From NCBI RefSeq assembly GCF_017304615.1, contig NZ_JAFKLZ010000002.1, forward strand, positions 620,001 through 684,000: DNA of 64,000 nt, read 5' to 3'. This DNA comes from Sphingomonas sp. GTDB taxonomy: Bacteria; Pseudomonadota; Alphaproteobacteria; Sphingomonadales; Sphingomonadaceae. Below, piece by piece: positions 39,601-59,462 of this stretch (position 1 is its first letter; every line of letters starts with the position of its first letter). The position numbers and the translations under genes were made by a program. Below the pieces are notes generated by a model. It saw nothing but the letters and a program-made list of their open reading frames with translations, searched no databases and had not been told where the DNA came from.

Positions 39601-40167
39601 CGACAGCGCGATCCCGAACGCCCCAAATTCCAGGAATTCGGCAACCGATGCGGGATAAAGCACCGGGATCAGCGAGGCGACGAGCGCCTGTTCGGACTGG
39701 TGCGCGGTCGTCGACGACTTGGCCGAATGGTCGTCCCCGGCCAGGACCAGCACCCCGCCAAGCGCGGCAGTCCCCGCGAGATTGCCGTGCTTGAGCGCAT
39801 CGCCGGCCCGGTCGACCCCGGGCCCCTTGCCGTACCAGGCGGCGAACACGCCGTCATGGCGCGCGCCGGGAAAGAAGCCGAGTTGCTGGGAACCATAGAC
39901 GGCGGTCGCGGCCAGTTCCTCGTTTACGCCCGGCTGGAAGACGATCCCCCCGTCCTTCAGCGCGCCCCGCGCCGCCCAGAGGGCAGTGTCGAGCGAGCCC
40001 AGCGGCGAGCCGCGATAGCCCGAGACAAAGCCGCCGGTGTTGAGTCCCTGAGCCGCATCCGATCGCCGCTGGGACAGGAGTACGCGGGTCAGCGCCTGCG
40101 TGCCGGACAGGAACACGCGCCCCTGATCCAGCATGTATTTGTCGCTCAGCGCCACTTCGTATGACAT
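36694..40167 (-). CDS. Indolepyruvate:ferredoxin oxidoreductase, fused alpha/beta/gamma type
   Basis: 1157 aa from ATG 40167 (MSYEVALSDKYML); the upstream extension to 40335 has no family similarity. The fused enzyme oxidatively decarboxylates arylpyruvates or other 2-oxo acids to acyl-CoA with ferredoxin as acceptor. N-terminal domain starts with GFVSGYRGSPLGSLD; the TPP-binding region has CSGCPHNTS and MGGEGANWIG. A ferredoxin-like cluster follows (CEGCGDCSVKSNC, then CNKDFSCINGFCPS), then the gamma-type domain with GIGGTGVVTIG. It may feed phenyl- or indole-acetyl-CoA into the cluster. No coupled gene adjoins it. Confidence 0.88.
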   Translation of the reverse strand: MSYEVALSDKYMLDQGRVFLSGTQALTRVLLSQRRSDAAQGLNTGGFVSGYRGSPLGSLDTALWAARGALKDGGIVFQPGVNEELAATAVYGSQQLGFFPGARHDGVFAAWYGKGPGVDRAGDALKHGNLAGTAALGGVLVLAGDDHSAKSSTTAHQSEQALVASLIPVLYPASVAEFLEFGAFGIALSRFSGLWAGFKCINDTADATATASLGDPLRRWLCPEVEMPAEGLNIFQGESQLSMERRTTDFRLPAAQAFIRANRLDRLLRDGDRRTLAIVTAGKAALDVIEALNQLGLNDARCRALGIRVLKLAMTWPVEPDVTRAFARGHRQVLVVEEKRAFIEPQVASLLYHLDAGERPVLTGKADATGRPLLPQNGELGPTEIGAVLFGQLEALGLVDEPLRARRAEIEARLAAGSAALTPFNRMPFFCSGCPHNTSTVVPDGSVALSGIGCHVMAAMMPHRKHVWPVQMGGEGANWIGVAPFTDTRHIFQNLGDGTYHHSGSLAVRAAVSAGIGITYKLLFNDAVAMTGGQPVEGQMTPWQIASELLQEGVRKVVVVADDPDKYPSTVRFPDGVAIRPREELDAVQRDLATIDGVTVLIYDQVCAAEKRRRRKKGTFPDPAKRIFVNDLVCEGCGDCSVKSNCVSVQPLETEFGRKRQIDQSNCNKDFSCINGFCPSFVTVSGGNLKGRAAAAPAAAIPPLPAPPPPVEGALAILIAGIGGTGVVTIGAVLGMAAHLDGKSASIIDVTGLSQKNGAVFSHLRIAPSDDAIAAARIPIAGAELLLGCDMITAGGAEAMALVQPGHTRGVINENLTPTAAFTIDTGIDFAGAQTLRRLREVLAADSAFVDATRVAARLMGDAIGANMFVVGVALQRGLLPVSLAAVERAITLNGVAVDFNLRAFALGRLAVVEPGAIEAQLGDQVAAVAEGSLRLSTDTGDAIERRAALLADYQNAAYAARFGRKIAAIAAAEARVAPGRTELSDAVARNLFKLMAYKDEYEVARLYTSGEFRAKLGEQFTGDYRVSVHLAPPLFARKDPLTGLPRKREFGPWMLAAFGLLARAKRLRGTAFDPFGRTAERRMERQLVRDYEAVLDSIATHLDPVKYDAAVALARYPDKIRGYGHIKDRSVPGALAERDSRLAAFLVPIEELQAAE

Positions 40168-40793
40168 GCTATCCCTCTCATACCGGATTCCCGCGTACCA
40201 TGCGGTCAAGTATGGAGCAAGGGCTCGCCGGCTGTCGATGCTGCACGGCGGGAATTGTCGCCCTCCCACGAAAACCGAATGCAAGACTCCACCGAGCCGC
40301 TTGATCAGGGCATCGGTGGCGGTGGCCTGCGCCATTCAGCGCGCCCCGTCCGCAGGAGCCAGGGCGGAGCGGCTGCGGATGGACAGACTGCGGAACTTGG
40401 TCGACCTGCGGGGACGATCCATCGGCGATACTGTGTCCTTCCCATGACGGACCTCGCCGCTGAGGGGATACCGAGCGTGGCGCCAGGTCGGGCGCTCGCG
40501 CGGTCGAAGCCGTCCATGCGGCGCCGTCTGAAGCGCATCCGCTTTCCGGTCCATTGATGGAACTGGAAGGCGCGAGGTCGCATGCGTCGATCCGCCCGAT
40601 GAGTGCGGCCTCGTCCGCCTCCCGCACCAGGCCGGTTGCGCTCGACAGTCCCGGGACCGCCGAGACGCCGAACAGATCGCCGAGCGCGCTCCTCTCGACT
40701 CACCATGGAAGGTCGTTGAGGAAATCGGCGAGTTCCGTAACTTCAGGACCCTCCATCGAGCGAGCGCGATCGGGTACCCGGCTGCTCGCCCTT
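40168..40793. other. Gene-free stretch
   Basis: Several overlapping open frames exist on both strands, as expected at this GC content, but none shows a recognisable family or a credible ribosome-binding site. It is probably degraded sequence between the oxidoreductase gene and the IS remnants. Confidence 0.5.
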
Positions 40794-42618: not shown

Positions 42619-43515
42619 CTACGCGTGTCTCGTTTGCCAATTTCGGGTTTCGACTACAGGGGCAATCAGGTGCGAAAGCTGCTGCAACCAGCATGCCTCA
42701 TTTGAAATGCGTTCCTCGTCGCCTTCGATCCACCAAGCGCGACGTTCGGGCGACCAGCGATAACCGGCGGCCTTGAGAGCATCCTTGCACTCGAACGGTG
42801 CACGGTTTGCATAGAGCCGCTCGCTCGGTCGACGCGCCGTCTCGACCATGTGAGCTGCGATCGCCCGGCCATCGGGCGCGGTGAATGCGAGCAGGCACGT
42901 CGTCGCCCAGACGTCGGCGGCAGCACGATGCGCGTCGGGGAGGAAGAATCCAGCGCCGGTAAGCAATGCGCCGATGCTTCGTCCGCCACTCCAGCCCAGT
43001 GACGACCAATCCACCTCGCTCATCGAGCAAATCCAGGGCAGGTCGGCGAGCGCCGGGAACCGCTTGGTCGTGAACGCCCGATCGAACCTGGCATTGTGGG
43101 CTACGGTGGCCGTGACGCCCGTCATCGCCTTCATGATTGCCGCATCCGGAAACCACTTGCCGATGAGCATGTCGGACGTGATGTGGGTCAGCCGTTCGAT
43201 CTCGATCGATAAATCCTCGGCCGGATCTTCAAGCCATGATTTTGGCGGCGTGACGTCGATTACGTCGCCATGATCCGCATCGATCGTTAACGTCCCCACC
43301 GCGAACTCGATCATCTTGTGTCGCTCGGAATCGAGTCCGGTCGTCTCGCAATCGACGATCGCGAGCTTGATGACGTTGTCTGACGACGGCATTGATCGGC
43401 ACCACATTTCGTCGGGGCGCGGCAGGCGGCGGAGCACACGATAGTCGTCAAGTTGTTCGATCCGGCGCGCCATGCGCTCGCCACGGCGGTTGGGATTGAG
43501 ATGATAGAAGGACAT
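42619..43515 (-). CDS. DEDDh-type 3'-5' exonuclease
   Basis: 298 aa from ATG 43515 (MSFYHLNPNRRGERMARR). The exonuclease domain, related to the DNA polymerase III epsilon chain, starts with LAIVDCETTGLDSERHKMIE (first D and E), continues with VAHNARFDRAF, and has HRAAADVWATTCLL, which holds the final histidine and aspartate. A C-terminal region (CKDALKAAGYRWSPERRAWW) resembles the short tail found after exonucleases on plasmids and integrative elements. Function in the host element is unknown, probably DNA processing during transfer. Confidence 0.82.
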   Translation of the reverse strand: MSFYHLNPNRRGERMARRIEQLDDYRVLRRLPRPDEMWCRSMPSSDNVIKLAIVDCETTGLDSERHKMIEFAVGTLTIDADHGDVIDVTPPKSWLEDPAEDLSIEIERLTHITSDMLIGKWFPDAAIMKAMTGVTATVAHNARFDRAFTTKRFPALADLPWICSMSEVDWSSLGWSGGRSIGALLTGAGFFLPDAHRAAADVWATTCLLAFTAPDGRAIAAHMVETARRPSERLYANRAPFECKDALKAAGYRWSPERRAWWIEGDEERISNEACWLQQLSHLIAPVVETRNWQTRHA

Positions 43516-43590
43516 GATGCTGTTCCCTGGATACGCGAACGCCCGCCGCTCCACGGAGCGACGGGCGTCAGATTGCGTTGAAGGTGGACG

Positions 43591-44459: not shown

Positions 44460-47234
44460 CTATCGCGCCGGGCCACGGTCGATGTCCGATCGCTGGCTTC
44501 GGGTCGGAGAACTGCCGGTCGCTCGATCGGCATAGGCACGGACAGCGGCGGCGACGCTCGCCGGCCAGACCGCGTGACCGGCGGCGGCGCTGGCGCGCGC
44601 CGTTTCGGTGACCAGCGCGGCGACGCGATCGTGGTTCCGCCACGGATGGAGCAGCGCCGGCAGCATGGAGATCTTGCCGGGCATGGCCATCAGCCGACCA
44701 TCGGTTGCGATACGAATCCGGTCGGGATGCCGCCCGGCCAGCATCAGCAGCATGAGCAACTGATCGGTCGGCCTGCCCGTCGCATCGAACGCCGGGACGC
44801 GAACATATACGCCGTCATCCTGAAATACCGGGACGGGTCCCTGACGTTCGCCGCCCGACTCGACTAGCCCCCGTGCAGGTTCAAGCGTCGCCGGATGGCG
44901 GCCGATAGCGGCGGAAGCCCCGCGATCGGCGTCACGTCCGGCGTGGGTCCGCGCGACGCCCTTCTGGATCGCCGCCACATCCTGCTGGAACCCCGGGTCG
45001 GTCGCCCAGCGATCGATCCGGCGGAGCTGGTCCGGCGGCAGATCACGCGGCCAGAAGCGCGAGCCGGTCCTGGCAAACGCCAGCGGTCGCGCCTTCGCCT
45101 CGCGAGCGAGCTCGGCAACCACCAATTGCTGTTCGGCGCGCAACGCGCAAAGCCCGCGCTGCACGCCCGGCTGCTCCAGCCAGTCCCACCCGACCCCGAT
45201 CGCCTCGAGTGCCGGATAGTCGGTTTCGACCTGTCCGTGCTCGTGACGGTAATCGGCGACATAGGGGTCGAGGGCCTTCAACCGCGCCAGTCGGGCCGCG
45301 TCCGCTTCGTTTTTTCGGTCCACGGCGCGCGGTCGCGACACCGCCTCGGCAACGAGCCGATCGAGGCTCGGCAATGTCTCGAGCGTCGTCGTCGCGGCCA
45401 GCGTCGGCAGCGCGTCCTGCCGGAGGGCTTCGCCCGCTACGCGCTGCCGCAGCCGGCGCAGCCGCGCTTTCCGGGCGCGTGCCAACGCATCGAGCAGATC
45501 GAATGCGATGGGTGCGGATACCGTGGTGACGGTCGGGGTGACCGCAAGTTCCGCCCGCGGCCGCGGGCGCGGGGCGACGGTCAAAGTGCGGGCTTCCGTC
45601 GTCGGTACCGCGGTGATGAGAGATTGCGCGGCAAACCGCACGCGCATAGCCGGCATGCGGATCACCGCCGGCGTCAAGACCCGTCCGATGGTCATGCGGT
45701 CCGCCGGAACCGCACGCTTCCTCACGGAAAGCCGCGCCGCCGGGCGGACTGGCGGTGTCGCTTCCCGGCGGATCGCAGCGGGGGGCGTCGACGCCGGGGT
45801 CAGCGAGGCCGAAGGTTCGACCGGTGTGCCGGTCCTGGCGACGAGCGCCGGTCGTGCAGGGCGGTGGGTGATCGCCGGACTGAGGGTCTTCGCCGGCACG
45901 GCGGGCGCTGAAGATATGAGGGCGCTCGCTGACGGCGCGACCACTTTTACGGTCCGGATGGCTGCGGGTTCGACCGGGGGAGTAGCGCGGAAGACCTTCG
46001 CCGGGACGATCGCCTCCTCGTGACGCGCCATCCGTTCGATCGCCGCGTCGCGCACCCTGGTCAGGGCGGCGATCTTGTGGTCGGCGTCGCGAATCGCCCG
46101 CCGCGCGACGTTCTTTGCTGCCTTGATCCGGTTGCGTTCGTGCGCCCATACATGACCGCCTCGCGCGGCGATCGCGGCACGGGCTTCGCCGAGATGTTCG
46201 CCGACATCGAGATCGAGCCGCCGCGCGCCATAGCCGAGACCAGTATAGCGTCGGTTGCTCTGCGCCTGCTCCGCTGCCTCCGACGTCGAATGCGACCAAA
46301 GATGCCGAAGCATCTGAACGCCATCGCGGCCGTCGAGTTCGCCGCACACCTCGTCGGCGACGTCCCAGCAATAGGGCTCGACCCGACGCATCGGTCGTAG
46401 CGAGAAGGCGATGTGCGGATGGAAGTTGCGTTGATCGCCTTGCGCGGGCGGCGCGTGGATCGCGGCGGAATATGGGAGGCCGAGCGGGTCCAGCACGGTC
46501 GTGCAGAAGTGGCGCAACGCCGCGATCATCTCGGCTTCGCTCATGTCGCTGTCCAACGGCGCGATGGCGAGCATCTGGATTTTGGCGTTGGCGCGGGTGC
46601 TGGCGTCCTCCATCGCCTGCCAGGCAGTGCCGATCTCGATCCAGTCGTCGCCCATGTTGCTGATGATGACAGGCTCGCCCGCCGCGTCGAGCAGTACCGC
46701 CTCATCGCGGACGATGTATTCCCAGTTCTCGCGCGCCTTGCCGTTATGGAAGCCTGGCGACTTGCGACCTAGATAGCTCTGCTGCCAGATCACGCCCCTC
46801 ATGCCGAGCGCATCGACCGCCCAGGAGGATGCGGGGCGCGGCGCATCTATACCTCTTGCGGTCCCCCTGATCGCGATGCCGATTACGCGCTTGGTGACCG
46901 GTGACGTGCTGTTCTCCGGCCGCTTCGGCTCGGCCCGCACCTTGAACCGTGCGGCCCATCGGATCGAGCCGCGATGAAGCTCGGCCAGTTCCCGCTGCAA
47001 CGATCGCGCGGCGGCGCGATCCTCGAGCATCATCTGCAGTTCGAGGGCCTTCTCGTGCCGCTTGATCTTCGCCTGTTTGCGCGCCTCGGATCGCATCTGG
47101 CGCATGATGATCCGGCGGTTCTCACGCGTTGCAGGGATACAACTTCCGTCGGGCAGGACGAGAAAGAACTCAGGTGGGGGCGGGGGTGGGACAGGGCCGG
47201 CGGAGCCGCCCGAATTCGACGAAGGCGAATTCAT
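44460..47234 (-). CDS. Large putative relaxase (MobA/MobL-like)
   Basis: 924 aa. A basic, probably coiled-coil stretch (about residues 38-85) precedes a domain with YSAAIHAPPAQGD and NFHPHIAFSLRP (H272, H274), like the histidine cluster of MobA/MobL relaxases. The middle (about 410-560) is proline/alanine-rich and low-complexity, then a C-terminal helical region contains RDLPPDQLRRIDRWATDPGF. It probably nicks DNA at an origin of transfer for conjugative mobilisation. Divergent from the 47683 gene, with the 448-bp gap a likely oriT region. Confidence 0.6.
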   Translation of the reverse strand: MNSPSSNSGGSAGPVPPPPPPEFFLVLPDGSCIPATRENRRIIMRQMRSEARKQAKIKRHEKALELQMMLEDRAAARSLQRELAELHRGSIRWAARFKVRAEPKRPENSTSPVTKRVIGIAIRGTARGIDAPRPASSWAVDALGMRGVIWQQSYLGRKSPGFHNGKARENWEYIVRDEAVLLDAAGEPVIISNMGDDWIEIGTAWQAMEDASTRANAKIQMLAIAPLDSDMSEAEMIAALRHFCTTVLDPLGLPYSAAIHAPPAQGDQRNFHPHIAFSLRPMRRVEPYCWDVADEVCGELDGRDGVQMLRHLWSHSTSEAAEQAQSNRRYTGLGYGARRLDLDVGEHLGEARAAIAARGGHVWAHERNRIKAAKNVARRAIRDADHKIAALTRVRDAAIERMARHEEAIVPAKVFRATPPVEPAAIRTVKVVAPSASALISSAPAVPAKTLSPAITHRPARPALVARTGTPVEPSASLTPASTPPAAIRREATPPVRPAARLSVRKRAVPADRMTIGRVLTPAVIRMPAMRVRFAAQSLITAVPTTEARTLTVAPRPRPRAELAVTPTVTTVSAPIAFDLLDALARARKARLRRLRQRVAGEALRQDALPTLAATTTLETLPSLDRLVAEAVSRPRAVDRKNEADAARLARLKALDPYVADYRHEHGQVETDYPALEAIGVGWDWLEQPGVQRGLCALRAEQQLVVAELAREAKARPLAFARTGSRFWPRDLPPDQLRRIDRWATDPGFQQDVAAIQKGVARTHAGRDADRGASAAIGRHPATLEPARGLVESGGERQGPVPVFQDDGVYVRVPAFDATGRPTDQLLMLLMLAGRHPDRIRIATDGRLMAMPGKISMLPALLHPWRNHDRVAALVTETARASAAAGHAVWPASVAAAVRAYADRATGSSPTRSQRSDIDRGPAR

Positions 47235-48563: not shown

Positions 48564-48848
48564 ATGGCCGACAGCACCATCACCGTCGAAGGCGTTCTGG
48601 TCACTGACATCACACCCTATCGCACCAAGCTCGAAACCGTGCGCGCAAAGCTCAAGGCGATCTTCACCGGCTTCAATCCCGCGAGGCCCGAGCATCTGCT
48701 CCCGCGAGAAGCGGAGATCGTCGCTCTCGCCAACGACGCCGAGCGCCTACGCGAGATCGTCGAGAGTTGGGACGCGGTCGAGGGACAGCGCGCCAACATC
48801 ATCGGCGTCTGGGAACTGGTGCGAACGTTCGATGGGGACGAAGCATGA
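48564..48848 (+). CDS. Small hypothetical protein
   Basis: 94 aa from ATG 48564 (MADSTITVEGVLVTDITPYR), with GGAGG 7 bp upstream; a GTG at 48558 overlapping the previous stop would add two residues. Predominantly helical after residue 20. No family recognised. Stop overlaps the next start (ATGA). Confidence 0.65.
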   Translation: MADSTITVEGVLVTDITPYRTKLETVRAKLKAIFTGFNPARPEHLLPREAEIVALANDAERLREIVESWDAVEGQRANIIGVWELVRTFDGDEA

Positions 48849-51202
48849 CCCCAGATCGCGCACTCCACCGCGACAGCCGCGAAGATATCGAGGGCCTCGC
48901 GCATCGCGGCCGCATCCGGCTGCCCGAGGTGATCCTGCCCGACGGCTCGGCGTCGCCGGATCAGGTCGCGACGGTGCCGCCGGGTGTGGACCTGGCCAAG
49001 GCGTTCCTTCCCTGGCGCGAACTGCCCGGGCCGCCATCGGCGGGAATGGGGGCCGCGATCGTCGGCACCCGGGAACCGGATATCGGCCCCTGGCTCGCCG
49101 GTGCCGGCACTGCCCTGAGTCTCGATGCCGGCTACCCCTACATCACCCGGCCGCAGAGCCGCGACGAGATCCTGGCGTGGCTCTACGATCTCACCGGCGT
49201 CCGTTATGCGCCAGCGGCGTTCTGGCGGGTCGCGGGCTGGGAGATCGGCTGGCTGGCGCACTGGCTTGATCGCCTGTTCACCGGCGGTGCGATGGGCAAG
49301 CTGATCGTCGTCGAGCGGCAGGCTGCAGCGGCAGTGCGTGCGGCGTGGCTTGCGCTCAGGGCCGACGCTGCGAGCGGATCACCACTGATCGACACCGGCG
49401 TGTTGCTGGCGGCGCGCGCGGTGATCGACATGCTTGTCGCGTTAGATCGCGTAATCGGCGCAGCGTCCCACGATCCGCAAGTCCAGGCGAAATGGCCCGC
49501 GGTGCTCGACGCGCAGGCCGCCATCATCCAGCGGCTACGCTCGTTCGTCCGGGCGATCGAAGACGCCGCCGGCGATCGGAGGCTCGCCGTCGACCGGGAA
49601 CGGAAGATCGGCCACGCGCTCGATCATGCGCGCGATATCGTCGAGAGTATCGGCCTGTTCACCGCGGTCGGCGACGCGATCGGCGAAAGCGTTCTGCGGA
49701 TCACCGGTGCACTGCCCACCAAAGGGCGTAAGCCCCCGCCGCTCGACACGACGTTCGCCACCGAGCTGGTCGATCTCTCGAACCGGCTGGAGACCGCGAT
49801 CGCGGCCGGGCCCGAGCCGGCAGAACCGAAGCGATGGGACACCGAGACGACCGGCGATCTCACCCGTCTGTACGACACCAGCCCGCAAGCGCGTGGCGCG
49901 GCGCTCGCTCGTGTCCGGACCGACCTTATTTACAAGCTGGTTGCCACCCGCCGGCTCGACCGGCTGTTCGAGGCGCTCCCTTGGGTGGCGGCGCCGTCCG
50001 GCGCGTTCCGGCTGACGTTCGGCGGGCCGCTCGGCGCGATAGCCGCGGTGTTCGAGATCGCCCGGCATCGCGAGATCGCGGTCGAACAGGTGCATCGCAC
50101 CCGTGAGCCCGTCGCCGGCGGTCGGCTGGATACGACGCGCGGCAAGCAAGTCTACGGCGATCCGAGCCAGGCACTAAGCGCTCTTGGCTCTAACAGTCGC
50201 GCCGGGTTCTGGCTCGCCAGCAGCGCGCTGTCGCATCACATGATCAAGGCGCTGCTGGATGGCCGCAGCTTCGATGCCCGTCATCCGCTTCCCACATTGC
50301 AGACGGGGCGTCTCAGCTGGGACTTTGAGCACGCTATGTACGATCCGGCGACGATGACGACGGTCACTGAGACCGAACTCGCCAAGTCGGTCTACGCCAC
50401 CGCCGATTACCACCGTGACCTGCCCCGCTACATGGGACTGGTGGTGGGCGACGTCCTCACCGCCGGGCTGACGGACGTGTTTCCCGGCGAATTGCGCGGA
50501 CCGGGGTTCAACCGTTTCACCAGCGCCGCCGACGCGCAGCGTCGCAACCTCAAGGTCGGTGGCAACCCGTTTGCCGGTGACAGCGCCACCGCCGCCCATC
50601 GCGAGTTGCTCCGGTCGATCCTCAAGTCGCTCGACGAACCCACCGACGGCAACGATGCCGCCTGGCGGACCGCATCGGTCGTCACCCGCACACCCGCTAC
50701 CCACGAACTGCGCCGGTTCGACGAACGCAACGTCAGCCATACCGGCGACCGCGGCGATGCTGGCGGCCGCATCCGCCGCCGGGCCGCCGAGATCCGCAAG
50801 GCACAGAAGGACCCGGGCAGGACGCTGCGCCGCATGGTCGATCGCGCGCGCAGCTGGACCGATACGAGCGACGACCAGCCGCTCGCCGGCGTCCTGTCCG
50901 GGCGCCTGCGCCTTACCGCAGTGACGCCGGTCGCGCAGACCGGTATCCCGGCGATCTGGTTCTGCCCGGGGATCGACACGCCGGTCCACGACTGGATCGC
51001 CCATGGCGCGCCGATGTGGCAGCCACTGGCGCTGAGCAATATCGTCCACGCCGGGCTGATCGCGCGCGAGGTACAGGCGGTCGGCGACGCGATGCCGGTA
51101 TTGTTCGGCATGCCAATCCCCACGGCGCTGCGCCGTCGTATCCTGGTACCGTTCTGGACCGGGCTCGCCGGTATTACTGACGACCACGCCCACGTTCCTT
51201 GA
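48845..51202 (+). CDS. Large hypothetical protein of the mobile element
   Basis: 785 aa from ATG 48845 (MTPDRALHRDSREDIEGLAH), a 4-bp overlap with the preceding gene. Long helical stretches, for example about residues 170-290, alternate with loops; no signal peptide, membrane segment or nucleotide-binding motif is evident. The size, context and translation coupling suggest a role in element maintenance or transfer. A family could not be recognised. Confidence 0.7.
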   Translation: MTPDRALHRDSREDIEGLAHRGRIRLPEVILPDGSASPDQVATVPPGVDLAKAFLPWRELPGPPSAGMGAAIVGTREPDIGPWLAGAGTALSLDAGYPYITRPQSRDEILAWLYDLTGVRYAPAAFWRVAGWEIGWLAHWLDRLFTGGAMGKLIVVERQAAAAVRAAWLALRADAASGSPLIDTGVLLAARAVIDMLVALDRVIGAASHDPQVQAKWPAVLDAQAAIIQRLRSFVRAIEDAAGDRRLAVDRERKIGHALDHARDIVESIGLFTAVGDAIGESVLRITGALPTKGRKPPPLDTTFATELVDLSNRLETAIAAGPEPAEPKRWDTETTGDLTRLYDTSPQARGAALARVRTDLIYKLVATRRLDRLFEALPWVAAPSGAFRLTFGGPLGAIAAVFEIARHREIAVEQVHRTREPVAGGRLDTTRGKQVYGDPSQALSALGSNSRAGFWLASSALSHHMIKALLDGRSFDARHPLPTLQTGRLSWDFEHAMYDPATMTTVTETELAKSVYATADYHRDLPRYMGLVVGDVLTAGLTDVFPGELRGPGFNRFTSAADAQRRNLKVGGNPFAGDSATAAHRELLRSILKSLDEPTDGNDAAWRTASVVTRTPATHELRRFDERNVSHTGDRGDAGGRIRRRAAEIRKAQKDPGRTLRRMVDRARSWTDTSDDQPLAGVLSGRLRLTAVTPVAQTGIPAIWFCPGIDTPVHDWIAHGAPMWQPLALSNIVHAGLIAREVQAVGDAMPVLFGMPIPTALRRRILVPFWTGLAGITDDHAHVP

Positions 51203-51277: not shown

Positions 51278-52138
51278 ATGACCGACCAGTTGCCGCTCAA
51301 CACGCCCAAGGGCAAGACCCGGGTGATTCAGGTCGATCCGGCCTCAGTGCGCATTTCGCCCCTCAATCCCCGCGCCACCACTGTACATGATCCCAAGGGG
51401 CTTGGCCGGCTCGCACTCGAACTCAGGGAGGTCGGCCAGATCAACGACGCGCACGGCGAGACCGCCGCCGACGGCGTCATTGAACTGCTCGCCGGCTCGC
51501 GTCGTTGCGCTGCGTGCATGCTGGCGAAGCTGCCACTGCGCATCCGCGTCCATGGCGAGCTCTCGCGCACCGAGGCGATCGCCATCGCGTACCGCGACGA
51601 TCGCGAGGCGCTGACGCCGTGTTTCTGGGATCTCGCCGGCGGCTGGTCGCGGCTGACGGCGGACGGCGCGTTCAAGTCCGACGCGGACCTCGCCAGGGCC
51701 GTCGGCATCGACAAGTCGACGCTGAGCCGCGGGCTGGCGTTCCGCAAGGCGCCCGACGCCATCCTCGATGCATTCGCCGACAGGGGCGATATCAGCCTCA
51801 GCCAGTGGATCGACCTCGCGCCGCTCGTCGAGGATCCCGATACCCGCGCCAGGCTGATCGAGCGCGCCGCAATCATCGCCGCCAAGGGGTATGCCGCACC
51901 GCGCGTCGCCGCCGAGCTCAAGGCCGCTGCCGCCGGCAAGGCCGAGATCAAGGCGATCGAGGTCAGGAACCGGCACGACCGCGTCGTCGCCGTCATCCAG
52001 CCCGACCACCGCGGCGGATTCGCGATCAAGGTCAAGCCGATGGCCGAGGCGCACCCCAGCTTCCGCCTCGAATATGCCCGGCTCGTCAATGAGCGGTTCG
52101 TCGAGATCATCAAGAGCTGGTTCGATCGCGAAGCCTGA
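51278..52138 (+). CDS. ParB/RepB-like partition protein
   Basis: 286 aa. The N-terminal ParB fold shows SPLNPRATT and AGSRRCAACMLAKLPLRIRV in place of the usual GERRxRA box, and a helix-turn-helix LARAVGIDKSTLSRGL follows. ParB-like proteins of integrative elements bind centromere-like sites or act as CTP-dependent regulators. No parA gene is next to it. ParB genes linked to ThiF/E1 genes occur in PRTRC-type cassettes, and a ThiF gene lies 3.6 kb downstream here. Confidence 0.75.
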   Translation: MTDQLPLNTPKGKTRVIQVDPASVRISPLNPRATTVHDPKGLGRLALELREVGQINDAHGETAADGVIELLAGSRRCAACMLAKLPLRIRVHGELSRTEAIAIAYRDDREALTPCFWDLAGGWSRLTADGAFKSDADLARAVGIDKSTLSRGLAFRKAPDAILDAFADRGDISLSQWIDLAPLVEDPDTRARLIERAAIIAAKGYAAPRVAAELKAAAAGKAEIKAIEVRNRHDRVVAVIQPDHRGGFAIKVKPMAEAHPSFRLEYARLVNERFVEIIKSWFDREA

Positions 52139-52506: not shown

Positions 52507-53136
52507 ATGACGACTGGTCCTGGGGTGGAACTCAAGGAAAGCGACAATCGCTTCACGTCGCCCACCTTCATCAAGGCGATCGAACAGAGCTTCGGCAGGA
52601 TCGGCTTCGATCCGTGCTGGCATCGGGCGAGCGCAGTACGCCCGCTCGCGTATCTCGATGTACGCCGGGGGGATGATGGTCTCCGCGACGATTGGTCGGG
52701 CAACGTGGCGTTCGTCAACCCGCCGTGGTCGAACCAGAAACGCTGGATCGAACGCGCGCATGATCAGTGGCTCTGCGGTAACGTCGTTACAGCTATATGC
52801 CTCGTGCCCGCGAAGACCGACACCAGGCTCTTCCATCACGTCCTGTCGAAAGATGCTGACGTGTATTTCATCGAAGGCCGCCCCCACTTCTTCAGGGAAA
52901 ACGGCAAGTCCGAGGCGACCATGGTCAGCGCTATGGTGGTGATGTTCGGCGCGACGCCCGCACAGAAGCGGCGTTTCGCGGAAAGGGTCCGGGGTTCGTG
53001 GTGGGTGCCGAACCGCTCGTCCGCCGATTTCGCCGGACGACTGCCGCTCGGCGCAAGGTGTGTCGTCACGGAATATCCGGTCATGTCGTGCACCGCTTCG
53101 TCACAGGCGAGCGTCGTCTGCGCGCCCGGACGCTAG
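52507..53136 (+). CDS. Phage-type DNA N-6-adenine methyltransferase
   Basis: 209 aa. DNRFTSPTFIKAIEQSFGRI and FDPCW at the N-terminus and the catalytic NPPWSNQ (adenine-methylase motif IV) are typical of phage Dam-like enzymes (PF05869 type). GAGGAG precedes the ATG. Such enzymes modify element DNA against host restriction or regulate element genes. The C-terminal tail after about residue 165 is unlike the family. Overlaps the convergent gene by 4 bp. Confidence 0.8.
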   Translation: MTTGPGVELKESDNRFTSPTFIKAIEQSFGRIGFDPCWHRASAVRPLAYLDVRRGDDGLRDDWSGNVAFVNPPWSNQKRWIERAHDQWLCGNVVTAICLVPAKTDTRLFHHVLSKDADVYFIEGRPHFFRENGKSEATMVSAMVVMFGATPAQKRRFAERVRGSWWVPNRSSADFAGRLPLGARCVVTEYPVMSCTASSQASVVCAPGR

Positions 53137-53762
53137 CCGGAGGTTGCGAACCGGAGCAGGTCGAGTTCGCGCGCAGCGTCCTGCTCGGTAGCGATCGTCG
53201 TTTCGACGAACCCGGCGACGAGTAACGGCATGAATGTGGTGGTGTCGATTACGACGCCACCATCCAGTTTCCCTACAGCTTCGATGGCCGACGACGGGGA
53301 CAGCAGCACTACGTCGCCCAGCGCGCCACCGTATCGTTCGTCGTGACGGCCCTGACGGCCAAGATCGTTGAGGGCGCTCGCCGCAACGACGATGACCGTC
53401 TCGTCGCCGAGCGGTCGTCTGGCGACATAGGATTTCGGCAGAACCTCTTTCGCCCCGGCAAGGAGCGCCGGAGCCAGCGTCGACCAGCGCTCGGTCACGT
53501 AGCGGGCGGCGAGCGAGGGCACCATGAACGCCGCCATCAACCGGATCGCAGCGGCGAACGCTGCCAGTTCGGCAAGTCCGTACGTTGGTCCGCCAACTTG
53601 GCCACCCTCGCGTGGCGGAAGGCCAAGGCGTTGCAACTGGCGGATGCGAGCCTCGAACGCCGTTCGCGCGGCGGGGTCGATACTGCAAGCCGCCATCAGC
53701 ACGGTGACGGCCTGCGCATAGCGAAGCGACAGGCGAAGAGCGGGCGTGGCAGGCATCGACAC
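53133..53762 (-). CDS. Hypothetical protein, divergent to the Ubl/E1 operon
   Basis: 209 aa, alanine- and leucine-rich (MSMPATPALRLSLRYAQAVT). Several hydrophobic stretches, such as LAELAAFAAAIRLMAAFMVP, but no clear membrane topology. No family recognised. Its start is 76 bp from the start of the plus-strand operon, so the palindrome at 53811-53830 could control both directions. Confidence 0.6.
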   Translation of the reverse strand: MSMPATPALRLSLRYAQAVTVLMAACSIDPAARTAFEARIRQLQRLGLPPREGGQVGGPTYGLAELAAFAAAIRLMAAFMVPSLAARYVTERWSTLAPALLAGAKEVLPKSYVARRPLGDETVIVVAASALNDLGRQGRHDERYGGALGDVVLLSPSSAIEAVGKLDGGVVIDTTTFMPLLVAGFVETTIATEQDAARELDLLRFATSG

Positions 53763-53800: not shown

Positions 53801-53830
53801 TTGACATAGAACATACACGATCGTATCTGT
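53801..53830 (+). promoter_or_regulatory. Promoter with overlapping ACGATCGT palindrome
   Basis: TTGACA (53802-53807) and TATCTG (53825-53830) are 17 bp apart, and the palindrome centred at 53820/53821 (ACGATCGT, with partial arms to 53811-53830) fills the spacer. A repressor bound there would block polymerase. ACGATCGTATC recurs at 57379-57389. Confidence 0.6.
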
Positions 53831-53838
53831 TCTGCGCC

Positions 53839-54480
53839 ATGATGAGCAGGATGATCATCGATACGCCCGACAGCGCCTTTCGGTTGTGCGGACGCACACA
53901 AGGTGGTCGCGTACTCGAACTGCAAGTCCAGCCGCCCGGCAGTAACGCTGCACCAGTCGCTATCTGGAGCCGCCGCTTCACCGATGATGCGGGGTGCGAT
54001 GCGCTGCTGACCGCGGTGAGCGAGCGTGAGATCGACATCGTCTTTCTGGGGCGTCTCACCATGATGTTCGGCGGCAGAGCCCTCGACGAGATAGCCGATG
54101 CGCTCGTCGCCGCCGCGGCGGCTCGGCGGGAGAAGGAGCGGGAGACGGAAGCACGGCGGGCACGCGATCACCTCACCGTCAATCTCTACGCGCGCGAGGG
54201 CAAGCACGGTCGGCATCTGCTCGAGCTGCAGCGCAGAAGCAGTTCCGATGCCGACTGGTCGGTCAGATACGACCGCGCGGTCGAACGCGACCGCCTGTGC
54301 GACTGGCTGCGCTGGCAGAAGGATCGGTTCCTCCAGTTCCTCGACCACGCCGCCGAGCATGGCGACGAATCGCTCGCTCGGATGCTGATCAACGAGATGT
54401 TCGTGACCGAGCGGCGCGTGAAGAAGGAAGGGCGCGGCGCCGGCGGCATGCGGCCCCTGAGAATGTGGCGGGGCGACTGA
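53839..54480 (+). CDS. Hypothetical first gene of the Ubl/E1 operon
   Basis: 213 aa from ATG 53839 (MMSRMIIDTPDSAFRLCGRT); ATG 53851 is possible and has AGCAGG nearby. Two similar beta-rich units seem to occur, GRVLELQVQPPGSNAAPVAI and GRHLLELQRRSSSDADWSVR, each followed by a helix with charged residues, so it may be an internal duplication. A charged helix with EKERETEARRARD joins them. No family recognised. Stop and next start overlap as TGATG. Confidence 0.6.
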   Translation: MMSRMIIDTPDSAFRLCGRTQGGRVLELQVQPPGSNAAPVAIWSRRFTDDAGCDALLTAVSEREIDIVFLGRLTMMFGGRALDEIADALVAAAAARREKERETEARRARDHLTVNLYAREGKHGRHLLELQRRSSSDADWSVRYDRAVERDRLCDWLRWQKDRFLQFLDHAAEHGDESLARMLINEMFVTERRVKKEGRGAGGMRPLRMWRGD

Positions 54481-55361
54481 TGGCGATGCTGGCACCCTTC
54501 CAACCCGCCACCCCGGCGATGATCGTCGGCCACGGTTCGGACGACGAGTCGCTGCCGCTCGAACTCGGCGAGCCGTTCGCGCTGCTCGGTGGCGACCGAC
54601 TCGGTCCCGACGGCATCCCGTTCCTGGTTATGCACGAGCACCAGCCCGAGTTCCTCGCTTGGGTGCGTAGGCGATGCGCCGCGATGCTCGCAGCCGAACG
54701 CCCGTGGTTTGGCGGCGGCTCGCTGATCCTCGGCGGCGTGCCCGGAGCGGGTCGTACGCATGCGGCGCGCTGGCTGGCGCGTGTTGCAGGCGTACCGCAT
54801 GCCGTGCTCAACCTCACCGATCCCGTCATCGCCGCCAATATTGCAGCTTCTGGCGAGATCGGGGAGGCGATGGGCGCTTCGCCCGTCACCATCGCGATGG
54901 CGACCGCCCGCTGCGCCAATCCGGTCGTCACCGTACTGGGTGCCGACCGCGTCGGCGACGACGTCCTCGCCGGGTTCCAGGCGATGGTCGATCCGGCGCG
55001 TTGCCGCCGCTGGCGCGAGGACCGGCTGGGGATCGATGTCGATCTCGGCGAGGTGACCTGGATACTGCAGCGCGACCTTCAGCGCGCCGTTCCCTCGTGG
55101 GTCGCGCCGGACGCCGATGCGATCGCGCTGCGGACGATTCCGAGCGGGACGGATCACGTGCTCGCGCTCTCCATCTGCCTCGAGGCGATGGGTGATATCG
55201 ACGTCGATCCGCGTAGGGGCACCTGTTCATGGGATCAGATCAGCGAGCACTTGCCGCGACACTCCTATCATTCCGCGAAGTCGCTCTACGCCGACATGAT
55301 CGACGCGCTGCGCGGATGCCTGCGCCCGACCGACCGCCGCTCCGACCCCGAACCCTTCTGA
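54480..55361 (+). CDS. Lon-like AAA+ module with degenerate ATP site
   Basis: 293 aa. GGVPGAGRTHAARWLARVAG aligns with the Walker A of Lon-type AAA+ proteins but has R where lysine belongs. VVTVLGADRVGDD sits where the Lon Walker B (LLDEIDK) should be and lacks both acidic residues. MVDPARCRRW and GIDVDLGEVTWIL match the Lon LDP... and sensor region. No protease domain follows. It may be a scaffold rather than an active ATPase. It overlaps the previous gene and lies 14 bp before the ubiquitin-like gene. Family call is inference from motif order. Confidence 0.6.
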   Translation: MAMLAPFQPATPAMIVGHGSDDESLPLELGEPFALLGGDRLGPDGIPFLVMHEHQPEFLAWVRRRCAAMLAAERPWFGGGSLILGGVPGAGRTHAARWLARVAGVPHAVLNLTDPVIAANIAASGEIGEAMGASPVTIAMATARCANPVVTVLGADRVGDDVLAGFQAMVDPARCRRWREDRLGIDVDLGEVTWILQRDLQRAVPSWVAPDADAIALRTIPSGTDHVLALSICLEAMGDIDVDPRRGTCSWDQISEHLPRHSYHSAKSLYADMIDALRGCLRPTDRRSDPEPF

Positions 55362-55375
55362 CCAGGAGAACGACC

Positions 55376-55750
55376 ATGCTGCCCACCATCACCGCCTCCT
55401 CCAACACTTCTCTCGTGCTGGCCGTCCTGCCGCCGGCGGTCGCGCCCCGTCGCCGTGCCCTGTATCTCGTCGGCGAGGCGGAGCGCTCCGCGCCGAAGCC
55501 AGTCGCTACCGCGGGGCGCACGATGATCTCGGTCAATGGTCGCTGGACCGCATTGCGCGGCAGCACCGTCAGCTATGCGCAGCTGCTGCGGATCGCCTAT
55601 CCCGACCGCGAGGGCCAGGCCCCGGGGTCGGCGACGGTGTCGTATCGCCACGCGCTCGACAGTGGGCTGACCGGACTGCTGACGCCCGGCGACGTCGTGC
55701 CGCTCGCTGATGGCCTGTTGGTCAACGTCAATGCCACCTTCGCCAGCTGA
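55376..55750 (+). CDS. Ubiquitin-like protein (multiubiquitin-type domain)
   Basis: 124 aa from ATG 55376 with AGGAGAA upstream. After a variable 45-residue N-terminus comes one beta-grasp-like unit: MISVNGRWTALRGSTVSYAQ, LLRIAYPDREGQ, SATVSYRHALDSGLTG, TPGDVVPLADGLLVNVNATF. The order VNG...SY..L...A...VTYR...G.L..G..V...DG...NV.AT is the pattern of the multiubiquitin/E2-linked domain. The chain ends AS rather than GG, so conventional conjugation would need trimming or another chemistry. Ten bases separate it from the E1 gene. Confidence 0.65.
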   Translation: MLPTITASSNTSLVLAVLPPAVAPRRRALYLVGEAERSAPKPVATAGRTMISVNGRWTALRGSTVSYAQLLRIAYPDREGQAPGSATVSYRHALDSGLTGLLTPGDVVPLADGLLVNVNATFAS

Positions 55751-55760
55751 GGGCAGAACC

Positions 55761-56510
55761 GTGGACGCCACCAACCGCCCCGACCCGTTCGTCTATCCGG
55801 ACACCGCCTCGCCTCGCGTCGGGATCGAGGCGGTGTCGGACCGGCTCGCGGGCGGTACGGTCGCGATCATCGGGCTTGGCGGCACCGGATCGATCGTGCT
55901 CGATCTCATCAGCAAGACACCCGCCGGCCGAATCCTGTTGATCGACGGCGACGCAGCCGAACAGCACAATGCGTTCCGCTGGCCGGGCGCGATGGCGATC
56001 GAGGACATCCAAGCCGGGCTGACCAAAGTCGACTATTTTGCAAAGGTATACGGCCGGATGCACACTGGCATCGAAGCCCATGCGGTGCATCTTACCGATG
56101 AGACGATCGGCCTCCTCGACGACACCGACTTCGTGTTCGTCTGCGTCGACAGCGTGGCAGCGCGTGCGTTCATCGTCCCTGCGCTGGAAGCGCGTGGCCT
56201 GCCCTATATCGATTGCGGCCTTGGACTCAGTCTAGTCGACGAACGGCTGATGGGCCTGATCCGCGTCACCACCAGCACGCCGGCGATGCGCGCGCACGTC
56301 CACGAGCGCGACCGGATCCCGATGACCGGCGATGCCGACGACGCACTGTATCGCAGCAACATCCAGGTCGCGGACCTCAACATGCTCGCCGGCACGCTGG
56401 CGGTGATCCAGTACAAGCAGCTCCTCGGATTCTACCTCGATACCGGCGCCGAATATCACGCCATCTATTCGACCGACGGCAATACCATCATCAACGCGGA
56501 CCGTGCGTAG
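55761..56510 (+). CDS. ThiF/E1-like adenylyltransferase
   Basis: 249 aa from GTG 55761. The nucleotide-binding motif is VAIIGLGGTGSIVLDLI (39-43 glycines), followed by ILLIDGDAAEQHNAFR (D62, D64, N70, R73) and K89, matching residues that bind ATP in E1, MoeB and ThiF. Cysteines are only C128 and C152 (YIDCGLG); no zinc CxxC pair is present. The C-terminal half (SNIQVADLNMLAGTLAVIQY) is like E1 enzymes encoded with multiubiquitin proteins. It probably adenylates the C-terminus of the upstream ubiquitin-like protein. No E2 or JAB protease gene is recognisable nearby. Confidence 0.78.
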   Translation: MDATNRPDPFVYPDTASPRVGIEAVSDRLAGGTVAIIGLGGTGSIVLDLISKTPAGRILLIDGDAAEQHNAFRWPGAMAIEDIQAGLTKVDYFAKVYGRMHTGIEAHAVHLTDETIGLLDDTDFVFVCVDSVAARAFIVPALEARGLPYIDCGLGLSLVDERLMGLIRVTTSTPAMRAHVHERDRIPMTGDADDALYRSNIQVADLNMLAGTLAVIQYKQLLGFYLDTGAEYHAIYSTDGNTIINADRA

Positions 56511-57330
56511 CGGCGACGCGATGGCGCGCTTCCTCGACCAGCCCGCCCAGCCGGCGCCGCTCGCCGGTGGTCGCCCGCCACGGGAAGACCGGATCGGCAT
56601 CAGGCGGCAGCGCCGACCAGGCGGCCTCGGGTACCGGTTCGAGCGGCGTCAAGTGGTGATCGACCTCGAACACCAGCGCTGCTCCCTCCTGAACGACGCC
56701 GGCGATGATCAGGTCTGCGGCGACGAAGAACGGATGGCTGACAACCTCGGCCAGCGTGCGCCGTGCGTTGCTGGCCGCTCCCCGCTGCAGTCCGGCGATC
56801 AGCGTGTCCGGCAGCCGGTGATCCTCGATCCGGATCAGCGCCCGTTCGCCGATTGTCGCGACGCAGCGCGGACGGTCGGACAGCTCGATCCGTTCGGCCA
56901 CGGCCATTCCGCCGCGCACCCTGATCCTGGCGCCGCCCTGTCCGAGCTCGCGCCGGGCGCGGCGATCGAGATAGCCCGCGACCGGGGACAGACCGACGGC
57001 ATTGGTCAGACGCAACGCCTTGCGCAACGCATTGCCGGTGCCGGCCCAACGCAACCAGTCGGCAAGAACGGTCGATCCGCTCACCAACCACAGCGGTATC
57101 GATCGGGATGCCATGCCGGCAGCCTCAATCATCCGAAGCGCTCGCTCGACTGCAATAGCCGCCTCAATAGCTTCGGCCAGCTTCTCGAAGGCAATGGCGA
57201 TGTCCGCTGCCCGAGCATCAAGATCAATCCGCGCATCGGCGATCATGATCCGACACGCGTCATTGCTTCCTTCGACGGTCCACGACTGCCGGTCGGCCAA
57301 CGCCGTCATCTGGTCAACCAGATCGCGCAT
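56491..57330 (-). CDS. Hypothetical protein convergent on the E1 gene
   Basis: 279 aa (MRDLVDQMTALADRQSWTVE). Helical N-terminus (ADIAIAFEKLAEAIEAAIAV), then a beta-rich C-terminal half with IRVRGGMAVAERIE and ALVFEVDHHLTPLEP. No family recognised. Its last 20 bp overlap the end of the E1 gene on the other strand. A perfect 14-bp palindrome, also found before the E1 operon, lies 46 bp upstream of its start, so both may be controlled together. Confidence 0.6.
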   Translation of the reverse strand: MRDLVDQMTALADRQSWTVEGSNDACRIMIADARIDLDARAADIAIAFEKLAEAIEAAIAVERALRMIEAAGMASRSIPLWLVSGSTVLADWLRWAGTGNALRKALRLTNAVGLSPVAGYLDRRARRELGQGGARIRVRGGMAVAERIELSDRPRCVATIGERALIRIEDHRLPDTLIAGLQRGAASNARRTLAEVVSHPFFVAADLIIAGVVQEGAALVFEVDHHLTPLEPVPEAAWSALPPDADPVFPWRATTGERRRLGGLVEEARHRVAATHGPR

Positions 57331-57375
57331 GTTCTTTCCACTCGTCTATCCCTGCCACCGACAAGGCATATGGTT

Positions 57376-57389
57376 GATACGATCGTATC
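57376..57389. promoter_or_regulatory. Perfect palindrome GATACGATCGTATC
   Basis: 14-bp perfect palindrome in the gap upstream of the minus-strand gene at 56491-57330. Eleven bases, ACGATCGTATC, are identical to the site in the Ubl/E1 promoter (53817-53827). Likely operator of the same regulator. Confidence 0.6.
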
Positions 57390-57719: not shown

Positions 57720-59462
57720 ATGATCACAGTCATCTATGCGAGATTCTCAAGCGCGTTGCAGAACGCGCGATCGATTGAAGATCAGATCGCCCTGTGCCGC
57801 GAGCGCTGCGAACGCGAAGGTTGGCCTGTCGCTGACGTTTTCACCGATTATGCGATCAGTGGAGCGGCCGGGATCGACGAGACCTCCCGCCCCGGACTGA
57901 GCGCGATGCTGGCGCGCATAGAAGCTGGAGGCATCGATCAGGTGGTGGCGGAGGCAACAGATCGGATCGCTCGTCATCAGGGCGACGCTTTTACGATCCG
58001 GGAGCGAATCACCTTTGCCGGCGCGCGGCTCTTCACGCTCTCGGACGGCGAGGTTACCGACATCACCGCTACCTTCCGCGGGCTGATGGACGCTCAGTTC
58101 CGCCGTGACCTGGCGGCGAAGATCAAGCGTGGTCAGCGCGGCACCATATCGCAGAAGCGCTCGGCCGCAGGTCTGGCCTATGGCTATCGTAAGGCAAACC
58201 GGTTCGACGATCGCGGCGAACTCATCCGGGGCCTGCGTGAGGTCGACGAGGAGCAGGGAAAGATCGTTCGGCGCATCTTCGAGGAGTTTGCGGCCGGGCA
58301 GTCCCCTCGCGCCATCGCGGAACGGCTAAACCGGGACGGTGTCGAATCACCGGGCGGGCGGCTCAGCGGACCGAGGTTCTGGCGCGCCTCGACGATCTAC
58401 GGCGATCGTAAGCGCAAGAATGGGATCCTCCAGAACCGGCTCTATATAGGCCAGCTTGTCTTCAATCGAACCAGGAAGGTGCTCGATCCACGCACCCGTT
58501 CGCACCTCATCCGTGCCAATCCCGAAAGCGAGTGGCTGGTCGAGGAGGTGCCCGACCTGCGGATTGTTGATGATGAACTGTGGGAAGGCGTGCAGTCGGT
58601 GCTGGGCCGGGTCCAGAGCCGCGCGCCGCAGAAGAGTCGCCGTCCCAAGCACATCCTCTCAGGGCTGGTCGCTTGTGGCCTGTGCGGCGGCGGTTGGGTG
58701 ATCCACAGCGGCAATCGGTGGGGATGCTCACGGCATAAGGAGGGCGGCAAACACGCGTGCGCGAACAATCGCATCATCACGACCGACCGGCTTGAGACCC
58801 GCGTCCTCAACGGATTGCAGCACTACATGCTCGACGAGGACCTGATCGAAATCTACGTCGAAGAATATCGCGCCGAGTTCGCCAAGCGGACCAGAGAGCT
58901 TAGCCGAGAGGGCGACCGTTTGAAGAAGCGCCACGGCGACGCCGTCGCCAAGATCGAGCGGCTGGTGGAGGCGATCGCCAACGGTGCCGAGGATTTCGTC
59001 GAGATCCGCGATGTTCTGGCCAAGGCGCGGAGTGACCGCGATCAGCTCGCCGAGCAGATATCACAATTGCAGCAATTACCGGCCGTCATGCTGCATCCGG
59101 CGATCGTTGCCGATTATCGCCGTCAGGTCGCCAGGCTCAATATCGCATTGGGAGGGAATCCGGAGGCCCGGCTCGAGGCAATTCCGCAGCTCAGGGCATT
59201 GATCGACCAGGTGAAGGTGTCACCGTCAGAGCAGGAGAAAGGCGTTACGATCGAGGTGATCGGACGGCTGACCTCGATCATGGCGCTCGCCACCGGTCAG
59301 CCGATTTCCGGAAAAGAGTACTTTAACGTTGGAGCGGGCGAAGGGATTCGAACCCTCGACCCCAACCTTGGCAAGGACAGTAACGTCTCTAACCGTGACT
59401 TACGGCGACTTGCCGAACATTACAAAATCACTCTCCAAAAGTTTGACTTTTCAACGACTTAA
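57720..59462 (+). CDS. Large serine recombinase
   Basis: 580 aa from ATG 57720 (MITVIYARFSSALQNARSIE), with the nucleophilic serine at residue 10 and SIEDQ following. Resolvase catalytic domain (to about 150), recombinase domain (PRAIAERLNRDGVESPGG), zinc ribbon (CGLCGG...GCSRH...HAC) and a long coiled coil with EGDRLKKRHGDAVAKIERL make up a complete protein. It catalyses site-specific integration or excision. The last 40 or so residues, including GAGEGIRTLDPNLGK, are translated from a tRNA-Gly fragment and beyond, so the native C-terminus may have been replaced by recombination. Confidence 0.9.
   Translation: MITVIYARFSSALQNARSIEDQIALCRERCEREGWPVADVFTDYAISGAAGIDETSRPGLSAMLARIEAGGIDQVVAEATDRIARHQGDAFTIRERITFAGARLFTLSDGEVTDITATFRGLMDAQFRRDLAAKIKRGQRGTISQKRSAAGLAYGYRKANRFDDRGELIRGLREVDEEQGKIVRRIFEEFAAGQSPRAIAERLNRDGVESPGGRLSGPRFWRASTIYGDRKRKNGILQNRLYIGQLVFNRTRKVLDPRTRSHLIRANPESEWLVEEVPDLRIVDDELWEGVQSVLGRVQSRAPQKSRRPKHILSGLVACGLCGGGWVIHSGNRWGCSRHKEGGKHACANNRIITTDRLETRVLNGLQHYMLDEDLIEIYVEEYRAEFAKRTRELSREGDRLKKRHGDAVAKIERLVEAIANGAEDFVEIRDVLAKARSDRDQLAEQISQLQQLPAVMLHPAIVADYRRQVARLNIALGGNPEARLEAIPQLRALIDQVKVSPSEQEKGVTIEVIGRLTSIMALATGQPISGKEYFNVGAGEGIRTLDPNLGKDSNVSNRDLRRLAEHYKITLQKFDFSTT
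59330..59376 (-). other. Attachment-site fragment: 3' part of tRNA-Gly(GCC)
   Basis: Read on the minus strand, these 47 bp run from the anticodon arm (CCTTGCCAAGG, anticodon GCC) through variable loop and T-arm (GGTTCGAATCC) to the acceptor strand and CCA. The 5' half is absent, so this is not a functional tRNA gene but a displaced 3' fragment of the sort left by integrases at tRNA genes. It sits 184 bp before a tyrosine-integrase gene and inside the end of the serine-recombinase gene. Its first 21 bp recur at 9719-9739. Confidence 0.85.

Follow-up and report, generated by a model that had tools for sequence, protein, structure and literature searches.

A predicted variant of the bacterial multi-ubiquitin systems in Sphingomonas and relatives pairs a ubiquitin-like protein and an E1-like enzyme with a Lon-derived pseudo-ATPase

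Introduction

Bacterial ubiquitin-like systems are a source of defense mechanisms and also hold hints as to how the ubiquitin pathway arose. Bil, CBASS Cap2, and PRTRC share a ubiquitin-like logic with a ThiF-type E1, and the Bub enzymes work through oxyesters. The systems closest to the locus studied here are multi-ubiquitin (polyUbl) systems, row 6e of Iyer 2006, and Bub, the subject of Gong 2025 and Ye 2026 as cited and remarked on in PMC13373217; in the portions of these sources covered here, as in our locus, a ubiquitin-like protein (Ubl) of the Multi_ubiq type adjoins a ThiF-type E1. Our locus is a four-gene cassette carried by Sphingomonas sp. (assembly GCF_017304615.1, contig NZ_JAFKLZ010000002.1, positions 620,001 to 684,000), and we refer to this whole stretch of 64,000 nucleotides as the window. 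The cassette encodes, in order, a protein of 213 residues (A213), a Lon-like AAA module, a Ubl, and an E1-like adenylating enzyme.

We propose that the four genes work as a single unit that descends from a conjugation system of the multi-ubiquitin (polyUbl/Bub-like) type and that A213 and an inactive AAA module stand in for the DUF6527 protein, and we put the probability of this at roughly 0.45. Such a variant would reduce the recognizable pathway to Ubl and E1, paired with a Lon-family pseudo-ATPase, and 15 natural versions of it are at hand. Its compact operon lets one ask whether a Ubl works without a recognizable E2 and what an inactive AAA protein does beside it.

A Four-Gene Operon Conserved at 15 Loci

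The first-pass annotation of the window, made from the letters alone, had described four closely packed plus-strand genes, and the open reading frames bear this out (Table 1). A213 and the AAA gene overlap in a TGATG at 54478-54482; AAA is separated from Ubl by 14 bp, and Ubl from E1 by 10 bp. The start codon of A213 has three candidates, at 53746, 53839, or 53851.

Table 1. Features of the cassette and of the element that carries it (window coordinates)
Feature	Position	Strand	Basis
A213, protein without family (213 aa), first gene of the operon	53839..54480	+	Open reading frame; kept at 15 loci
Predicted Lon-derived AAA module, pseudo-ATPase (293 aa)	54480..55361	+	hhalign to Lon; Lon structures in PDB; motif loss 15/15
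Ubl, one Multi_ubiq (β-grasp) domain at residues 51-120, C terminus T-x-x-S	55376..55750	+	Pfam; 9cd2
E1-like adenylating enzyme (ThiF family), 249 aa, without N-terminal DUF6791	55761..56510	+	Pfam/NCBIfam; BubCD and UBA5 structures
up209, divergent flanking gene, function not assigned, kept with the short-E1 branch	53133..53762	-	8/15 loci
down279, convergent flanking gene, function not assigned, kept with the short-E1 branch	56491..57330	-	8/15 loci
MobA/MobL-type relaxase of the element	44460..47105	-	Pfam PF03389 2.8e-7, above cut-off
p811, large element protein, function not assigned, travels with most short-E1 loci	48845..51202	+	
ParB-like protein of the element	51278..52138	+	TIGR00180 1.1e-9 (below cut-off); PHROG ParB 1e-12
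Large serine recombinase of the element	57720..59462	+	Pfam Resolvase 4.3e-20, Recombinase 2.6e-20

Conservation of the gene set across genomes, which that annotation had named as a check on its reading, is clear: we count 15 distinct loci, in Sphingomonas and other members of its family, at which A213, AAA, Ubl, and E1 occur in constant order (the window, L036, L037, L045 to L053, and L100 to L102). When the window AAA protein was searched against 397 genomes of the family, five places in four genomes matched at E ≤5e-20, namely the window, another copy within the window's own genome (the second copy, L036, 57% identity), and one place each in G395, G206, and G273; the other three genes adjoin AAA at all five. 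Of 26 stretches that an AAA pattern picked out in named genomes, 10 encode a relative, and the four genes stand in order at every one of these loci, in Sphingomonas, Sphingobium, and Qipengyuania. The pattern was derived from the family itself, and more distant forms would escape it.

Profiles of A213 give a similarly narrow distribution. The profile built from the first five places recovered those five and only weak matches in eight other genomes of the family, and in 385 genomes of the class it yielded, besides the window's own, a single weak match at 7.8e-4. A ten-row profile matched 8 of 386 genomes of the order at E <1e-30, the window's own among them, and only the window's own at E 1e-5 in 398 genomes of the phylum (these samples overlap). 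Five places at order level were opened: L100, L101, and L102 are new, lie outside the set from which the profiles were built, and carry the whole operon; L099 repeats L052 (Sphingomonas pituitosa), the two AAA proteins being identical; and L103 is fragmentary. Left out of the count of 15 are these last two places (L099 and L103), L044 (near-identical to the window), L038 (the same as L053), L039 (the same as L051), and weak A213 matches with E values of 4e-9 to 8e-4, including one in the window's own genome (C8:605883-606308). Among the 15, L048 and L049 (89%) and L052 and L100 (91%) are near kin in their AAA proteins. Two scans of viral contigs, in which 40 and 34 stretches matched by pattern, gave none that encodes a relative, and a plasmid search found no match for A213, Ubl, or the ParB-like protein and only two distant AAA-only proteins for AAA.

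E1 and Ubl Are Closest to the Multi-Ubiquitin Group

The Ubl matches Pfam Multi_ubiq with an E value of 6.2e-6, above the gathering score. Set against 9cd2, a solved multi-ubiquitin protein, the window Ubl alone gives E 0.15, and a ten-row profile of its family gives 1.2e-14 in a match that reaches the last residue of 9cd2. The earlier assignment of a single multiubiquitin-type domain with a β-grasp fold is thus upheld. Its C terminus reads T-x-x-S, with no terminal glycine, at all 15 loci and in the ten plasmid relatives described below.

The E1 matches Pfam ThiF (1.6e-12) and, at about 2e-81, the NCBIfam group PRK06153, below the curated cut-offs and over positions 153-389 of 391 only. Since this match begins at model position 153, the window E1 lacks the N-terminal part, which is DUF6791 in its relatives. 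The GxGGxG motif and Asp62, Arg73, Lys89, and Asp130 (window numbering), whose roles we presume from those of their counterparts in MoeB and ThiF, are kept at all 15 loci. With the adenylation motifs intact, as the first-pass annotation had held, the E1 likely activates the Ubl. Thr170 and Thr173 are likewise invariant at the 15 loci, and no invariant cysteine is present in the ten-row alignment. The nearest E1 sequences of solved structure are Citrobacter BubCD and UBA5, followed by ThiF and MoeB, and MccB and TcdA also match. A model of a relative's long E1 also has BubCD as its best match (4e-12); the match holds for the whole model, with a mean predicted local distance difference test score (pLDDT) of only 65.7 and a predicted template modeling score (pTM) of 0.49, and cannot be assigned to DUF6791.

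In the mechanism that we propose, the E1 would adenylate the C-terminal carboxylate of the Ubl, and the activated Ubl would be passed on through a hydroxyl-linked or direct acyl transfer, because the enzyme has no invariant cysteine. Alternatively, the Ubl may not be conjugated at all, the E1 either activating it as a carrier or adenylating a peptide, such as the tail of A213, to yield a small molecule or a modified peptide (compare ThiS/ThiF and MccB). The matches of the E1 to ThiF, MccB, TcdA, and UBA5 are compatible with this, as are the single Ubl domain and the fact that neither E2 nor DUF6527 was found in scans of the operon or, for DUF6527, at other loci. We nevertheless consider it unlikely, since both E1 and Ubl have their closest relatives in the multi-ubiquitin/Bub group, Pfam recognized neither a biosynthetic nor a sulfur-carrier gene in the cassette, and the Ubl is without the C-terminal glycines in which ThiS and MoaD end.

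The AAA Module Resembles Lon without Its Catalytic Residues

On its own, the window AAA protein matches nothing in Pfam beyond chance. A profile of ten AAA proteins, however, matches Lon structures in the PDB from 9e-14, and its profile-profile comparison by hhalign with 21 predicted Lon proteins gives 97.9% and an E value of 5.5e-13 over 185 columns; this Lon set consists of the long frames under weak matches of the AAA search, taken with no family scan and with 1 of 22 frames dropped for length. The AAA core is therefore homologous to that of Lon protease and of Lon-type AAA-only ATPases. Unlike Lon protease, the cassette protein has lost the Walker motifs at 15 of 15 loci: none of them retains the Walker A lysine or the Walker B Asp-Glu pair, which has glycine at its second position in every case and, in L051, glutamate at its first. 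It also ends after the AAA part, with no protease domain. Conserved at all 15 loci is CANP, ahead of the Walker B site, and the aspartate of the Lon "DP" is retained. The module had been called Lon-like and inactive-looking, and rightly so: judged by these residues, it is a Lon-derived pseudo-ATPase, predicted to have lost those needed to bind and hydrolyze ATP.

Elsewhere, there are Lon-type AAA-only proteins whose motifs are intact, in Methylorubrum, Azospirillum, G027, G076, G123, and G043. No match to A213, Ubl, or E1 was found in the stretches searched around these genes, so the degenerate form of the AAA module goes with the operon. The intact proteins of Methylorubrum (L069 6191-7810) and Azospirillum (L070 5140-6621) are encoded on megaplasmids.

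Given a core homologous to Lon, in which CANP and the "DP" aspartate were kept while the catalytic residues were lost, the module could act on the host Lon by joining or capping its rings, either blocking Lon or delivering Ubl-marked substrates to it. Many genomes of the family indeed have weak AAA matches to Lon-like frames of ~800 residues. We regard this as very unlikely: the nearest outside relatives are the AAA-only proteins, whose motifs are intact and which have no protease, and this weakens the case for descent from the host Lon; in addition, the AAA search listed no Lon-like match for the window's own genome. To a related idea we also give a low probability, namely that the dead AAA module is a receptor or targeting scaffold that ties Ubl marking to the fold of a proteolytic machine, perhaps the host Lon, without E2, JAB, or DUF6527. 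If true, the cassette would have arrived independently at a counterpart of the ubiquitin-proteasome link.

A213 Has a Conserved Tail and No Recognized Family

As the annotation had it, the partners are of no known family: A213 and up209 belong to no family in Pfam, NCBIfam, PHROGs, or PADLOC, and down279 has no solid match in Pfam and none in PHROGs or PADLOC. In the AlphaFold model of A213 (pLDDT 83.8, pTM 0.60), a long helix connects two groups of strands with helices behind them. Foldseek gave no match to it in the PDB at E ≤0.001 (best 0.3) and none in a library of viral models, and the best match of the sequence profile in the PDB was at 0.19, which we count as none. We accordingly claim neither an E2-like fold, suspected from the order of the strands, nor a likeness to PUR repeats, which came up only as the fourth-ranked match (E 0.52). 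The C-terminal motif RPLRxWxG of A213 does not vary among the 15 loci and may serve as a docking tail. In the proposed unit, A213 and the pseudo-AAA module, products of adjacent genes, would form an acceptor, scaffold, or targeting complex in the place of the DUF6527 partner of related plasmid systems, with the AAA module acting as a protein-binding scaffold rather than as a motor.

Comparison with Known Ubiquitin-Like Systems

A tblastn search with a long E1 matched 114 plasmid records, and we examined 10 of the 40 listed. In each of these, a multiubiquitin gene overlaps the start of the E1 gene, and in nine a gene for DUF6527, which we take to be BubE, directly follows (eight annotated, L075 by Pfam; none annotated in L078). 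These plasmid trios thus resemble the cassette in the adjacent Ubl and E1, the T-x-x-S end, and the lack of an annotated E2, and differ from it in that none of the 10 has a match to A213 or AAA. Conversely, searches for the metal-binding DUF6527 protein came up empty for the window and 12 loci, for L099 to L103, and for four whole genomes that carry the cassette, with a match in 1 of 14 control genomes.

No E2 was found among the window genes in Pfam and PADLOC scans, which a diverged E2 could escape, and no JAB in the same scans of the operon and its flanks. Prok-E2_E is absent from all four cassette genomes but also from all 14 controls and so says little, and JAB-family proteins occur elsewhere in the four genomes, as they do in 8 of the 14 controls. 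The first-pass annotation had treated the absence of E2 and JAB as setting the locus apart. This does not hold, because no E2 or JAB is annotated beside the E1 in the ten plasmid relatives either (their gene table is incomplete). What distinguishes the cassette is the Lon-derived pseudo-ATPase and A213 where nine of these ten have DUF6527 and, in the branch of the window, the loss of DUF6791.

Next to Bub and polyUbl, with which it shares the Ubl-E1 pair and an E1 nearest to the solved BubCD, the cassette adds the predicted Lon-derived pseudo-AAA and A213, and E2, JAB, and DUF6527 were not found there; compared with row 6e, the E1 of the window branch is without an N-terminal JAB or DUF6791. 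The part of Iyer 2006 covered here notes a "distinct domain" in place of JAB, and the DUF6791 of the long E1s may be that domain. Since the N-terminal JAB/DUF6791 and the DUF6527 features are not found in the window, we do not file its cassette as a member of Bub. FtsH-ternary conflict systems, as far as the consulted part of PMC7159879 describes them, are similar in having an AAA+ protein (FtsH/MoxR) in an operon with Ubl conjugation genes, but come with an E2, a RING-type E3, a JAB, and a caspase-like effector. The whole word Lon does not occur in the text of PMC7159879, nor do the whole words AAA and Lon in that of PMC1779556, and none of the top-ranked literature, which did not cover the main Bub papers, describes an operon in which a Lon-like AAA protein accompanies Ubl and E1.

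Membership of three further systems was considered and rejected. Bil has a similar logic and a ThiF-type E1 in the portion of its description covered here, but its E2 and JAB deubiquitinase were not recognized in the operon and flanks by Pfam and PADLOC. For CBASS Cap2, no CD-NTase was present among nine proteins scanned and there is no E1-E2 fusion; PADLOC E1-E2 models match the 249-residue E1 over its ThiF part (best 2.4e-8). As for PRTRC, TIGR03736 (PRTRC ThiF) gave 0.013 and 14.9 bits against a cut-off of 144.75, and no other PRTRC model matched among 10 window proteins.

The suggestion of an unlisted minimal Ubl module therefore stands in part, and none of the outcomes that the first-pass annotation had named as refuting it arose. 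The pairing with AAA and A213 is unusual, and its steadiness across loci is new as far as our searches go; judged by its proteins, however, the cassette is best seen as a multi-ubiquitin (polyUbl/Bub) variant rather than as a wholly separate module or an unknown class.

Two Branches of the Cassette

The 15 loci fall into a short-E1 branch of eight (the window, L036, L045 to L049, and L102), all with up209 and down279, and a long-E1 branch of seven (L037, L050 to L053, L100, and L101), whose E1s have 388-413 residues by gene calls. DUF6791 is present at 3e-30 to 4e-49 in the three long E1s scanned (L037, L038, and L039). Longer Ubls, of 219-224 residues, are found in L050, L053, and L101, and that of L053 has two Multi_ubiq stretches according to Pfam. 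A tree of 22 E1 rows has three label changes on the best tree and is still compatible with one origin.

In L050 and L053, the operon is immediately preceded by a related exonuclease-type gene (Pfam RNase_T for L053). At 42619-43554, the window encodes an RNase_T-type exonuclease with a DUF5710-like end (below the family cut-off) that is 36-40% identical to this gene.

Profiles of up209 and down279 have no match in the PDB beyond chance. Compared by hhalign with the group of the gene that follows E1 in L053, down279 gives 57.8% and E 1e-4, and is possibly a distant relative of that gene. Proteins at L046 3962-4789 and 13259-13933, L048 11972-12616, and L049 11894-12622 distantly resemble the same L053 gene and could possibly form one family with down279.

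Points against the Proposed Unit

Several observations weigh against a single conjugation unit. No acceptor or ligase was identified; A213, which would be part of such a complex, has no fold match in the PDB or the viral models; and the E1 tree does not resolve the rows that bear AAA as a single clade. As the window E1 is without DUF6791, the activity of its relatives' E1s cannot be assumed for it. At L103, A213 is found as pieces in two frames (5475-6231), with no AAA, Ubl, or E1 within the 10 kb fetched. The Ubl frame of the second copy (L036 10558-10887) has no in-frame start codon before mid-domain, which may mean that this copy is broken or starts elsewhere. Finally, 2 of 10 neighbors scanned for defense genes gave no match.

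Some of these points would also suit a canonical multi-ubiquitin system that is in decay and no longer has a function, which could explain the missing DUF6791 and DUF6527, the dead AAA module, the relic at L103, and the second-copy Ubl. This is highly improbable. Ratios of nonsynonymous to synonymous substitution rates (dN/dS) for six genes, in three pairwise comparisons each, are 0.15-0.32; these are rough values, since dS is near saturation, and they roughly point to purifying selection. Moreover, the E1 motifs are intact and the Walker losses shared at all 15 loci.

Carrying Element and Genomic Context

The prediction that the cassette lies on a mobile element is borne out by the relaxase, serine recombinase, and ParB-like genes nearby (Table 1), and the element also encodes a Dam-type methylase. 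In a metagenome-assembled genome of Qipengyuania, 13,897 bp (L044 1-13897) are 99.4% identical in DNA sequence to the window element, which points to a recent transfer between genera if the binning is right, and otherwise to a binning error.

The proposed unit would likely serve to defend against invading DNA or to control the element that carries it, a role suggested by context alone. Directly ahead of the second copy, L036 2670-8184 encodes QatC and Thoeris-type proteins, namely three ThsB-type TIR proteins and two pieces of ThsA type that lie in different frames (5496-6257 and 6404-6937); a candidate defense gene, PDC-S65, neighbors the cassette in L053, and a type II methyltransferase does so in L047. 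This context is drawn from ten chosen neighbors at five loci, few enough that it is not a statistic.

The cassette could, in contrast, be a toxin-antitoxin-like or element-maintenance unit, with the ParB-like protein, relaxase, and recombinase as partners and defense not involved. Relatives of the ParB-like protein and p811 lie near the cassette in the window, L045, L047, L048, and L049, as well as at the second copy (L036), where up209 and down279 are also present, and the relaxase and recombinase are close by in the window. At L046, ParB-like and p811 relatives are not within 9 kb. That the long-E1 loci L037, L038, L039, and L050 to L053 keep the four genes with no match to ParB or p811 argues against such a unit, and we judge it improbable.

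A tRNA-Gly gene (59330-59409) overlaps the 3' end of the serine recombinase gene, and a 47-bp part of it recurs exactly at C8:691289-691335, outside the window. The ~12 kb bracketed in this way begin with a tyrosine integrase and look like a second element inserted at the tRNA. Further upstream, the window encodes a large protein with DUF6537 and POR domains (36694-40335), presumably the domain set of indolepyruvate ferredoxin oxidoreductases.

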